NCBI GenBank assembly: GCA_013215775.1
Contig: JABSQO010000012.1
Location: 1 to 55,457, forward strand
Length of the DNA: 55,457 nt
Reading direction: 5' to 3'
Origin: Piscirickettsiaceae bacterium
Lineage (GTDB): Bacteria > Pseudomonadota > Gammaproteobacteria > Nitrosococcales > Methylophagaceae
A model generated the notes under the pieces. That model was not told the origin of the DNA. It ran no database searches and saw only the letters and a program-made list of their open reading frames with translations. Position numbers and translations under genes: made by a program. How positions within the stretch are numbered: position 1 is the first letter of the stretch; each line of letters begins with the position of its first letter. Below, piece by piece: positions 38,501 to 42,180 of the stretch.

Positions 38501-39112
38501 TTACGTTCTTACAGGTACAACTTTTATGGCCGTTTGCTTAAGGTAATATCGGTATAGACGTATTGCTAATAAAATAAAGACAATCACCGCATATTGTAAT
38601 GGTTCTGTTTTGTCTGCTTTAACCAACATATAAAAGTGGATACAGCTTGCTATAGCAATAAAATAAGTCAGTTTATGTAAACGTTTCCAACGTTTACCAC
38701 CTAGGCGTTTGACCATCGCATTATTAGACGTGGTAGCCAATAATACCAGTGATGTGAAGGTGAAAAAGCCAATAGTAATGAAAGGTCGCTTGATAATATC
38801 TTTAATTATTTCATCAAAATCAAAAAACTGATCTAGCCACAAATAAAGCAACATATGGATTGAAGCATAGAAAAACACATACAAGCCTAATATTCGCCTG
38901 ATAGGAACAAATAAGTTACTCCCTGTCATCCATCTCAATGGTGTAATTAACAACGTCAACACTAAAAAACGTAATGCCCATAGGCCCGTATTACGCGTCA
39001 ACGTTTCAATAGGATTTACACCAAGCTGATTAGTGAATAAAGCATAAACCAGCCAAATCGCCGGCAATAAACTTATTAGAAAGACACCTACTTTTAATTG
39101 TTTAACATTCAT
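38501..39112 (-). CDS. msrQ: Heme-binding membrane subunit MsrQ
   Basis: 203 residues, about six membrane helices of the ferric-reductase-like fold. TGLWALRFLVLTLLITPLRW, YASIHMLLYLWL and RLHKLTYFIAIASCIHFYML supply the His residues expected to bind heme. MsrQ passes electrons from the quinone pool (or flavin reductase) to MsrP in the periplasm. It lies 21 nt after msrP, and MsrP-MsrQ is the usual pair. The AT-rich 38.43-38.50 kb region follows it, without a GC-rich terminator. Confidence 0.93.
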   Translation of the reverse strand: MNVKQLKVGVFLISLLPAIWLVYALFTNQLGVNPIETLTRNTGLWALRFLVLTLLITPLRWMTGSNLFVPIRRILGLYVFFYASIHMLLYLWLDQFFDFDEIIKDIIKRPFITIGFFTFTSLVLLATTSNNAMVKRLGGKRWKRLHKLTYFIAIASCIHFYMLVKADKTEPLQYAVIVFILLAIRLYRYYLKQTAIKVVPVRT

Positions 39113-39133: not shown

Positions 39134-40093
39134 CTAGAAATTTTTCGTTAAATCCATATCTGTATAAAGATGAGCCACTTGCTCACCATAACCATTAAAC
39201 AGTTTGGTTTTACGTTTTAAAAACTCACCGATACGACGTTCACGACTTTGACTCCAGCGAGGATGATCAACATTCGGATTTACATTGGAGTAAAACCCAT
39301 ACTCTCTTGGCCCTGCTTTCATCCATGCAGAAACAGGTAATGTTTCAACAAACCGAATACGAACTATTGATTTAATACTTTTAAAACCATATTTCCATGG
39401 CACAACAAGTCGAATAGGCGCCCCATTCTGGCCTAATAATTCTTGGCCATAAAGTCCCACTGAAAGGATAGTTAATGGGTTCATCGCTTCATCCATTCGT
39501 AGACCTTCAGTATAAGGCCAATCTAAAACAGCCCTTTTTTGGCCAGGCATTTGCTCCGGGTCATACAAAGTGGTGAATTCAACGAATTTTGCCCGAGAAT
39601 TAGGTTGAGCACGCTTGATTAAATCTGCCAATGGAAAACCGACCCATGGAATAACCATCGACCATCCTTCGACACATCTAAAATTATAAATTCGTTCTTC
39701 CAATGTAAAGGGACGAATCAGATCGTCATAATCAAACTCACCAGGGTTATCACACTCTCCCTCAATCACAACACGCCAAGGTTTACTTTTATCAGGAAAG
39801 TTTGTCGCCATCTGTGCTGGAGATGTTTTATTGGTCCCAAACTCGTAAAAATTATTATAGGTAGTGATTTCTTCAAATGTATTCGGCTGTTCTTCTGTCG
39901 AATATTGACTCTTAACCAAATCTTTAAAGGTTGGTACAGCTTCAACCTCGGCATGCGATATTGATAAAGGCAAAATACTGGCCGAAGCTACAATAGCAGC
40001 ACCATTTAAAAATTGTCTACGATTAAGATATGTCTGATAGTCAGTGATCTCACTAGAAGCCACTTCCCCAAGTCTCTTTTTACCAATTAACAT
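39134..40093 (-). CDS. msrP: Periplasmic methionine sulfoxide reductase, Mo subunit
   Basis: 319 residues. Twin-arginine signal RRQFLNGAA at 25-33 with cleavage near SHA-EV (about residue 48). The molybdopterin ligand is C140 in [14 protein letters not shown], with downstream [28 protein letters not shown] typical of MsrP/YedY. It repairs oxidised methionine in envelope proteins using electrons from MsrQ. It lies 10 nt after the HvfX-type gene, so it is in the putative operon hvfX-msrP-msrQ headed by the Cys-rich peptide. Confidence 0.95.
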
Positions 40094-40103
40094 GACAGCA
40101 CCT

Positions 40104-40682
40104 TCAGCAATTTGAATATTTTTTAGCTATCCAATAATCAGTGCTGACATACTTACCAGCACCAATAAAGAACAACGTCATCAACATAATGAAATAAGTT
40201 GTCGCAAACTCAATACCGTTATTCAAAATAACAAAATTACCATTTTGAGTTAACCAGTCATAATTACCATGTTCTTGCAATATAGATCGGGCAGCTTCAA
40301 GTTGGGCACTAGGCTCTGCAATCGCCAACCAACCATTTCCCCAATGAACAGTAGTAGCAGCCACAAACATAGTTACCATTAGAGGAAGACTAATCCACCG
40401 AACAGCAAAACCTAATACCAAGAAAATCGCGCCAAAATATTCTGCGCCCCAGGCCAGATAAGCCATAATCTCTGGGAAAGGTAAGTTTAAGCCTCCTGCA
40501 CCAAACCAGCCAATTACGCCATCCAGTGAGCTATCAGCATCGAATGGATTCCATTTATTATTTGCTGCCATCCAAAATATAGGAGCCAGATAAAATCTTA
40601 GCGCTAGTGGCGCTAAAAAGTCTATCGCACGTGTTTTATTTAACCAACCTTGAAAAGTATTTGCCACACTACAGATAAACAT
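40104..40682 (-). CDS. hvfX: HvfX-type DoxX membrane protein
   Basis: 192 residues, about four membrane helices of the DoxX fold. [48 protein letters not shown] and [30 protein letters not shown] match the DoxX subgroup encoded with HvfA/bufferin peptides (HvfX). That subgroup is linked to copper and to RiPP maturation or function. AAGGAG gives a strong ribosome site before ATG 40682. It lies 10 nt before msrP and 131 nt after the peptide gene, with a hairpin between. Its exact role is not established. Confidence 0.85.
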
Positions 40683-40762
40683 ATGAATCTCCTTGCGAAA
40701 TTGCTATTAATTTATATTTCAAGATCAAACTAAATAATAAATTAATAAAAAATTCTTTTATG

Positions 40763-40792
40763 AAAAGGGGCTCCTTAGAGCCCCCTTTTTTT
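40763..40792. terminator. Terminator/attenuator between hvfA-like and hvfX-like genes
   Basis: Stem AAAAGGGGCTC (40763-40773) with GAGCCCC plus T run (40778-40792), 4-nt loop CTTA. On the minus strand it ends in only four T, so read-through into hvfX-msrPQ is likely. It would make the peptide mRNA more abundant than the downstream genes. On the plus strand the T tract is longer. Confidence 0.75.
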
Positions 40793-40812
40793 ACATATTA
40801 AACAGGCTGATA

Positions 40813-41223
40813 TTATTTTTTATCAGCACCACATTTTGCTTCACCGCATTTACCTTCGGCTTTTTTATCCGCACCACATTTTGCTTCACCACATTTACCT
40901 TCTTTCATTTTCCCAGCTTCATGCTTCATATTTTCGCCACATTTACCTTCACCCAATTTTTTAGCTTCATCTTTCATGTTGCCGCCACATGTTGCTTCTT
41001 CCGCTTTCTCGCCGCCACACTTACCTTCACCCAATTTTTGAGCTTCATCTTTCATGTTACCGCCACAGCCACCTTCAGCAAGTTGCATATAGCCACTAGA
41101 CAATTCAGCAGATGCAAAGGGGTTAGTACCTGCACTTGCTAAAATAGGTGATAAAGCAAGACCCGCAGTCAATGCAGCACTAGCAGCCAATGCGATTGTT
41201 GTTTTGTTAGTAGTAATAGCCAT
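40813..41223 (-). CDS. hvfA: HvfA/bufferin-like Cys-rich secreted peptide with EGKCG repeats
   Basis: 136 residues. Sec signal peptide with cleavage after A31 (ILASA-GTNPF). The following NPFASAELSSGYMQLAEGG is the typical HvfA leader-like segment. The rest is low complexity, K/E/G rich, with eight Cys at 53, 69, 79, 95, 111, 116, 126, 131, in four EGKCG motifs plus EAKCG, EGGCG and ATCGG variants. An 18-residue unit is repeated (54-71 and 80-97). In the known family, such cysteines are converted to copper-binding heterocycles by HvfB (MNIO, DUF692) with HvfC; neither gene is in the window. It is probably an envelope metal-binding peptide. Confidence 0.88.
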   Translation of the reverse strand: MAITTNKTTIALAASAALTAGLALSPILASAGTNPFASAELSSGYMQLAEGGCGGNMKDEAQKLGEGKCGGEKAEEATCGGNMKDEAKKLGEGKCGENMKHEAGKMKEGKCGEAKCGADKKAEGKCGEAKCGADKK

Positions 41224-41276: not shown

Positions 41277-41291
41277 AATCTTGCTAACATA

Positions 41292-41317
41292 GACAGACAT
41301 AAAATGGATTTGTTACA
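41292..41317 (-). promoter_or_regulatory. Candidate ECF-type promoter for the hvfA-like gene
   Basis: Minus strand: TGTAAC (41312-41317) followed after 17 nt by GTC (41292-41294). A TGTAAC -35 with a GTC-containing -10 is a common ECF sigma pattern. It has no good sigma-70 -10 at the right distance. The leader to ATG 41223 would be about 60 nt. Confidence 0.45.
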
Positions 41318-41323
41318 AACCTA

Positions 41324-41941
41324 ATGAAAAATATTTTTCGCACCAAACAACCAGATGAGAAGGTCTTAATTAAAAGGCTCATTAATGGTGAAGCAGATGC
41401 CTTTGAGCAAGTTGTTGCGGATTACCATAATATTATGTTGTCTATAGCAAGAGCAATAGTTGGCGAAGCCTTCGCCGATGAGGTGGTGCAAGATGCTTGG
41501 ATTTCGGCGATTAAAGCTTTACCTAAGTTCGAAGGCCGTTCGACATTGAAGACATGGCTGCTCCATATCGTTAGCAATGGTGCTAAAAGCCGGGTTCGTA
41601 GAGAAAATAGACATAGTTCATTAGATGAAGGTTGGGAATCAATACCCGCGGATAAGTTTGATAACATCGGTCATCGATATGATGATATTTATGCATGGGA
41701 CAATGAAACACCAGAAGCAATATTAGCCAATGAACAACTTCAATCTATTATTGAAAAATCCTTTCAACAACTCCCAGCCCAGCAACGTGCTGCATTGACG
41801 CTATATGATATGGAAGGCATAAAAATGGAAGAAATTTGTAACATTCTTGATGTATCCGCGTCTAATGTACGGGTATTACTGCACAGGGCACGAACAACTC
41901 TACATCATAGTATCGAGCAATATCAGGATAATGAAAAATAA
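41324..41941 (+). CDS. ECF RNA polymerase sigma factor
   Basis: 205 residues. Sigma2 region about 25-90 (FEQVVADYHNIMLSIARAIVG ... DEVVQDAWISAIKALPKFEG, then STLKTWLLHIVSNGAKSRVRRE). Sigma4 about 140-195 (SFQQLPAQQRAALTLYDMEGIKMEEICNIL, then SASNVRVLLHRARTTLH). There is no sigma3, as in ECFs. It directs polymerase to stress promoters. The stop overlaps the anti-sigma start by 1 nt (TAATG). It is divergent from the Cys-rich peptide gene, which is a likely target. Confidence 0.93.
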   Translation: MKNIFRTKQPDEKVLIKRLINGEADAFEQVVADYHNIMLSIARAIVGEAFADEVVQDAWISAIKALPKFEGRSTLKTWLLHIVSNGAKSRVRRENRHSSLDEGWESIPADKFDNIGHRYDDIYAWDNETPEAILANEQLQSIIEKSFQQLPAQQRAALTLYDMEGIKMEEICNILDVSASNVRVLLHRARTTLHHSIEQYQDNEK

Positions 41942-42180
41942 TGTATCAATGTAAAGACATCGCTGATGAAGTGAATAGCTATATTGATGGTGCTCTACCA
42001 TTAACTAAACGCATTGGTTTGTTTTTTCACTTACTTATTTGTAGCTGCTGTCGTAATTATTTACAACAAATTCGCACTACGATATCTGTTATTACTGTGT
42101 CACATCCTAAAGAGCACGACAATACTGACACTAAAGCATTAGCACAACATTTACATGATCTCTGCAAACATGATCACTAA
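41941..42180 (+). CDS. Small zinc-finger anti-sigma factor
   Basis: 79 residues. MYQCKDIADEVNSYIDGALPL is the usual helix of zf-HC2 anti-sigma factors. The ZAS motif H-x3-C-x2-C is seen in FHLLICSCC. After it, there is only a short His-rich tail (LAQHLHDLCKHDH) and no membrane helix, so it should be a soluble cytoplasmic sensor that releases the sigma factor when the zinc cluster is oxidised or loses metal. It is coupled to the sigma gene. Its stop overlaps the converging DUF1244 stop. Confidence 0.85.
   Translation: MYQCKDIADEVNSYIDGALPLTKRIGLFFHLLICSCCRNYLQQIRTTISVITVSHPKEHDNTDTKALAQHLHDLCKHDH

Follow-up and report, generated by a model that had tools for sequence, protein, structure and literature searches.

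The closest described system is the hvfABCX cluster of nontypeable Haemophilus influenzae, for which the available text reports a precursor with a signal peptide and EGKCG motifs (HvfA), an MNIO enzyme (HvfB), an RRE-domain partner (HvfC) and a DoxX-like protein (HvfX) (PMC13419390). HvfBC is described there as converting six HvfA cysteines into copper-binding 5-thiooxazoles (PMC13419390, PMC13097082). In the same species, RpoE2 and its small anti-sigma factor HrsE, which conserves the residues of the ZAS motif (C/H-X23-26-H-X3-C-X2-C), have been described as controlling msrAB together with a four-gene doxX cluster (COG3767, UPF0276, DUF2063 and DoxX), and rpoE2 and hrsE are reported to be co-transcribed (PMC7907618); this four-gene cluster is read here as hvf. 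Furthermore, the accessible part of a survey of MNIO clusters mentions that MsrPQ-type neighbours (PF00174 and ferric reductase genes) accompany a few Buf_EGKCG/oxazolin clusters, and suggests that precursors lacking a linked MNIO gene may be modified from another locus, or may stay unmodified (PMC12452194).

The window analysed here is a whole stretch of 55,457 nucleotides (contig C4 of the 2.2-Mb assembly of a Piscirickettsiaceae bacterium), and its relevant features are collected in Table 1. It very probably carries the precursor half of an oxazolin (captophorin, Buf_EGKCG) regulon that is dispersed over the genome of a Methylophaga-like bacterium, with HvfBC acting in trans. This reading is built on the genes, their far-apart sites, their co-occurrence and a shared promoter motif, all of them observed in this analysis. 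A literature search, made mostly outside subscription papers, found no earlier description of a split Methylophaga system.

Table 1. Features of the hvfA region, in positions of the window.
Feature	Position	Strand	Description
msrQ	38501..39112	minus	Heme-binding subunit; NF003831 184 bits (cut-off 130); in tandem with msrP
msrP	39134..40093	minus	Periplasmic methionine sulfoxide reductase catalytic subunit; NF003767 458 bits (cut-off 207)
hvfX	40104..40682	minus	DoxX-type membrane protein, open frame; NF050144 212 bits (cut-off 80), PF07681
Hairpin with T-run	40759..40784	minus	Between hvfA and hvfX; terminator or attenuator
hvfA	40813..41223	minus	136-aa exported-type precursor, open frame; NF050137 over cut-off
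hvfA promoter motif	41290..41317	minus	ECF-type, TGTAAC-N17-GTCTA; motif in 42/46 upstream stretches
ecf (ECF sigma gene)	41324..41941	plus	Divergent; PF04542 and PF08281 over cut-off; TIGR02937 90 bits (cut-off 42.9)
Embedded motif copy	41837..41864	plus	3' end of ecf, facing the anti-sigma gene
Anti-sigma gene	41941..42180	plus	79 aa; ZAS spacing C4-X25-H30-X3-C34-X2-C37, residues read directly

HvfA contains eight cysteines, four exact EGKCG motifs, a NPFASAELSSGYMQLAEG element and an N terminus that resembles a signal peptide, as judged by eye. It passed NF050137, the NCBIfam model of the HvfA-family domain (51.8 bits, cut-off 19.5), and failed the narrower HvfA equivalog NF050188 (30.8 bits, cut-off 95), and is thus a member of the family that lies outside the NF050188 equivalog. 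The original prediction, that the precursor is followed directly by the DoxX gene and then by msrPQ, with no DUF692 or DUF2063 gene in the 55 kb, holds on both counts: the order is confirmed by the open frames and the family scores, with 10 bp between hvfX and msrP, and PF05114 and PF09836 have no match on the window's contig.

Both profiles do find genes elsewhere in the same assembly. In a whole-genome search, PF05114 matched two places, on contigs C11 and C12, and PF09836 matched the same two. On C11, a gene reaching 448 bits on the HvfB equivalog (cut-off 360) is followed by another with 312 bits on the HvfC equivalog (cut-off 142), the sole HvfB-HvfC pair in the genome above the NCBIfam cut-offs. 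This HvfB scores 275 bits on the BufB model, under the cut-off of 310, and matches the solved MNIO 3bww at E 7e-76; HvfC matches 3dee at 1e-9. C12 carries a cysteine-rich exported-type peptide (bufA, by eye) followed by a BufB equivalog and a DUF2063 gene, that is, a bufABC-type locus. Among other loci of this kind, L254, L255, L256, L260 and L264 have at least two tandem bufA-type cysteine-rich precursors before bufB. No HvfA lies beside the C11 pair, and a protein search with HvfA up to E 10 returned the window copy only, with no further copy in the genome. These searches for DUF692 and DUF2063 genes and for HvfA paralogues had been proposed as checks on the prediction, which had also named the case counting against it, a pair in a second cluster with its own HvfA copy; this case did not occur, as the C11 pair has no HvfA.

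The distribution of both halves was followed by searching 63 genomes of the order for HvfX, HvfC and HvfA. NF050137 alone under-calls HvfA, since it missed G021, G026 and G058, which were found by a profile of 12 HvfA proteins; this second search covered only the 17 genomes left empty by the first, and "absent" hence means found by neither. A match in G061 to the HvfA profile, at E 0.54, was not counted. Forty-seven genomes have both hvfA and hvfC, two hvfA only (G044 and G045, 85 and 55% complete), five hvfC only (G009, G017, G025, G029 and G030, all 69-86% complete) and nine neither. Among the 42 near-complete genomes (completeness of 90% or more, contamination of 5% or less), 36 have both, six neither and none only one; the genomes compared are related and partly near-identical, so that these counts are not independent events. 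Both genes share a contig in nine of the 47 genomes, 48 kb to 2.5 Mb apart (smallest distance 48,154 bp), and are located on different contigs in the remaining 38. Wide hvfBC loci, available from 48 of the 52 hvfC genomes, contained neither hvfA, hvfX nor msrP (0/48), and these genes were also not found in the 3-kb hvfBC loci of the other four. The hvfBC site is nearly fixed over the 48 loci, with an eda-like gene after it in 44, a rhodanese-like gene in 35 and a permease-like or ferritin-like upstream neighbour in 41 (labels by eye). G058 comes from a different family of the order; its hvfA and hvfBC are separated by 61 kb, and a DUF1244-like gene, with 68% identity to its window counterpart, again lies at about 1 kb from hvfA.

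The precursor itself shows some variation. L025 and L026 (G036 and G035) encode HvfA proteins with EAKCG-type repeats and zero exact EGKCG, which bears on the substrate acceptance of HvfB. Second HvfA-like paralogues are present at L104:4541-4999 and L110:4860-5174, with two and no cysteines, respectively; in both, the signal peptide is retained, as is a good part of the leader-like element.

A promoter motif of the same type precedes both halves. For hvfA, 46 upstream stretches were analysed, drawn from 44 of the 49 genomes with this gene (G015, G023, G032, G034 and G058 were left out). TGTAAC-N17-GTCTA occurs in 42 of the stretches, amounting to 34 distinct sites, and is missed in G044, the second paralogue of G008, the paralogue of G010, and G021. 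When the -10 core is reduced to GTC, 43 of the 46 match at spacer 17, and 11 stretches match at spacer 13 and three at spacer 23. No sigma-gene-directed copy was seen in the hvfA upstream gap (0/46, pattern TG[ACT]AAC-N13-20-GTC), and the sequence following hvfA, covered for up to 200 nt, contained no motif either (0/46). Forty-six of the 48 hvfBC loci also carry TGTAAC-N17-GTC upstream of hvfB (misses in G038 and G058; in one match the spacer includes an N), without any match at other spacers from 10 to 24 in these 48 loci, and a Markov control gave 0.005 matches over 33 of the 48 stretches; a count of 59/73 that included repeated loci was set aside. Within the window's own genome, the stricter TGTAACA-N16-GTCW gave five matches (one for the reversed-pattern control), located 5' of hvfA, hvfB and bufA, inside ecf, and inside another gene (GGDEF/EAL-like by eye). 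Furthermore, of the 12 buf loci over the BufB cut-off, eight have TGTAAC-N17-GTC within 1.5 kb upstream of bufB (five with GTCTA) and four have none. Judging from these sites, hvfA, hvfB and bufA look to be under apparently the same stress-response switch. Nonetheless, a weight matrix trained with hvfA sites gives the hvfB site of this genome a score of only 2.1, where hvfA sites reach 20 to 33; the difference comes from its -10 element, GTCATAA instead of GTCTA. The matrix-best stretch within 2.2 kb upstream of hvfB (17.2) falls inside the rhodanese-like gene; the low score leaves the strength of the site, and even the identity of its sigma factor, unproven. A relaxed pattern was matched four times in the 25 canonical hvfA-hvfB loci taken from other Gammaproteobacteria: two exact TGTAAC-N17-GTCTA (L116 and L151, the latter with ecf and asf genes), TGAAAC in L143 and TGGAAC in L124. 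The motif is thus not wholly confined to the family, but rare outside it in this 25-locus sample.

Upstream of hvfB, 37 of the 48 hvfBC loci also encode an exported-type protein of about 251 aa (L006:7060-7815, minus strand, and orthologues). No copy was detected in the loci of G010, G014, G017, G021, G023, G026, G027, G028, G029 and G058, and in G015 the contig ends there. L-C-x-C-x-I is kept in 18 of the 18 proteins aligned, and no Pfam or NCBIfam match was obtained up to E 0.01; the AlphaFold2 model (mean pLDDT 82.7, pTM 0.66) suggests beta-sandwich-like modules, with generic Foldseek matches only (TM at most 0.33 among the 50 listed). As a promoter motif for hvfB itself lies downstream of that gene, the protein was set aside as a part of the system.

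Concerning the regulators, the ECF sigma gene and the small anti-sigma gene with its ZAS motif make the locus a candidate RpoE2/SigE-type ECF-ZAS regulon, the anti-sigma protein scoring just under the profile cut-offs (NF052368, 48.8 vs. 50; PF13490, 18.7 vs. 22.2). Of 38 ecf genes, 30 contain the internal motif, at roughly 100 nt from the 3' end of the frame. For a codon test, a truncated gene and another lacking the amino-acid motif were removed from these 38, leaving 36. Ranked for third-base conservation among 197 columns, the -35 codons 179-181 are 1, 7 and 3, the -10 codons 186-188 are 3, 9 and 3, and the four spacer codons range from 22 to 170. At residue 186, 21 genes encode Ala and 15 encode Ser, yet 34 of the 36 have CG as the last two bases of that codon. 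This conservation at the -35 and -10 codons suggests that the embedded copy is functional, as a promoter for the anti-sigma gene. On the precursor side, a GC-rich hairpin with a T-run is found at most 130 nt past hvfA in 40 of 45 loci (1.8 in the shuffled control), and its conservation would fit an abundant HvfA and a scarce HvfX-MsrPQ made via read-through.

Two genomes appear to show the system in decay. G021 has a fragmented ecf, a broken hvfX and a changed hvfA -10 element, and its locus yielded no anti-sigma gene, with hvfA, msrPQ and hvfBC remaining open. In G026, HvfA has three cysteines and no EGKCG, msrPQ and hvfBC are open, ecf was not seen at the locus and hvfX was not found in the genome. 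hvfX looks like the dispensable part, an assembly error being possible in G021, and this argues against HvfX replacing HvfBC. Broadly, it is likely that the oxazolin pathway has been stably split in this family into separate units (sigma/anti-sigma with hvfA-hvfX-msrPQ; hvfBC; and, in some genomes, bufABC) linked by one ECF promoter, a further copy of which in the last codons of the sigma gene would drive the anti-sigma gene; maturation in trans and a built-in brake would then be normal family-wide, with hvfX and sigma lost before precursor and maturase during decay, as judged from these two genomes.

The neighbourhood of hvfX was also compared within 4 kb in other bacteria, the named loci (L098-L177) being the best 80 of 94 found. 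Sixteen named relatives of HvfX share 74-91% identity with it, nine from Methylophaga/Piscirickettsiaceae and seven assigned to Gammaproteobacteria or Pseudomonadota only; judging from these names, the window's genome probably belongs to Methylophagaceae. An EGKCG peptide and hvfB accompany hvfX in 25 of the best 80 of 94, and the canonical order given in the original prediction for known clusters is indeed seen beside HvfX in other Gammaproteobacteria; 17 have hvfA and msrP without hvfB, as in the window; two have msrP only, with hvfX at the contig end in both; one has hvfB only; and none has hvfB and msrP together. hvfA, hvfB and msrP are all absent within 4 kb at 35 of the best 80 of 94 loci (e.g., Shewanella, Ferrimonas, Halopseudomonas), and no EGKCG peptide was seen beside hvfX in the 15 of these that were inspected by eye; the HvfX family name does not, therefore, imply a local RiPP.

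Three other explanations were weighed against maturation by HvfBC in trans. HvfA could be an unmodified free-thiol sponge for copper or oxidants, the HvfBC pair serving another peptide. The retention of hvfBC in G017, G025, G029 and G030, where hvfA was not found, agrees with this, as does G009, likewise without detected hvfA, though its hvfX runs off the contig end; these five incomplete genomes may point to another HvfBC substrate, and hvfBC is also kept in G026 despite its degenerate HvfA. On the other side, G017, G025, G029 and G030 are only 69-86% complete, the near-complete genomes are fully concordant, hvfA and hvfB have the promoter motif in common, and no further HvfA-like gene turned up in the window's genome. 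Free thiols, an option of the original prediction, are unnecessary, and we consider this explanation very improbable. Modification of HvfA by the BufB-BufC proteins of the C12 locus is more improbable still: bufBC belongs to the same genome and bufA carries the same promoter motif, but BufB is over the cut-off in only 12 of 63 genomes, vs. 49 with hvfA found, a second MNIO stays below the BufB cut-off in six more (G031, G032, G035, G036, G053 and G054), and the C11 enzyme is itself an HvfB by its equivalog score and not a BufB.

Finally, HvfX and MsrPQ could stand in for HvfBC, as had also been proposed from the window, and the 17 loci in which hvfX and msrP come after hvfA with hvfB absent from the locus would agree with it. 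This has next to no probability in our view: HvfBC is encoded in the genome, and such a replacement is unnecessary; G021 has a broken hvfX and G026 none that was found, with hvfA and hvfBC still open in both; and MsrP and MsrQ are known methionine sulfoxide reductase families. Maturation in trans, the remaining option of the original prediction, gains instead from the C11 pair, from its presence in 36 of 36 near-complete hvfA genomes and from the promoter motif of the same type. With the likely modifying enzymes in the same genome and apparently under the same switch, the locus is best seen as a rearranged known system, and not as new maturation chemistry.

In the mechanism that we infer, which covers the sigma factor reading the motif, the inducer, the modification of the peptide and the role of HvfX, envelope stress (possibly copper or an oxidant) would free the ECF sigma factor from its small zinc-type anti-sigma factor. 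Transcription by the freed sigma would cover hvfA, with hvfX-msrP-msrQ probably reached by read-through past the terminator, and two further chromosomal sites, one with hvfBC and the other with bufABC; it would also extend to the anti-sigma gene, which would act as a brake. By analogy with the H. influenzae enzymes, HvfB and HvfC would turn the cysteines of EGKCG/EAKCG into copper-binding 5-thiooxazoles before export; the mature peptide may then buffer periplasmic copper, and MsrPQ would repair oxidised methionines in that compartment. If so, copper-binding RiPPs would be tied to periplasmic methionine repair, and the promoter motif may serve to define the regulon. As for the question raised in the MNIO survey, whether unlinked precursors are modified from another locus or not at all (PMC12452194), this lineage provides a clean case, since its hvfA and hvfBC halves lie at distant sites, are inherited jointly and seem to be under common control.

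Compared with described systems, HvfA with EGKCG repeats, HvfB, HvfC and HvfX are held in common with the hvfABCX/oxazolin cluster of H. influenzae; unlike there, hvfBC lies here on another contig, at least 48 kb off in the nine same-contig relatives, and hvfX is followed by msrPQ. Neither a family-wide split nor a shared promoter is described in the accessible part of the MNIO survey (PMC12452194). The set of an ECF sigma factor, a small ZAS anti-sigma factor, a periplasmic Msr and doxX cluster genes resembles the RpoE2/HrsE regulon of H. influenzae and the SigE regulon of Neisseria meningitidis, as far as the available text describes them (PMC7907618), with similar control suggested here by the shared motif. 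In contrast to those regulons, MsrPQ takes the place of MsrAB, precursor and maturase are found in separate units, bufABC is added, and a promoter motif lies inside the sigma gene, ahead of the anti-sigma gene. The likeness to RpoE2/HrsE suggests that the Methylophaga arrangement works like the known regulon, with its genes redistributed.
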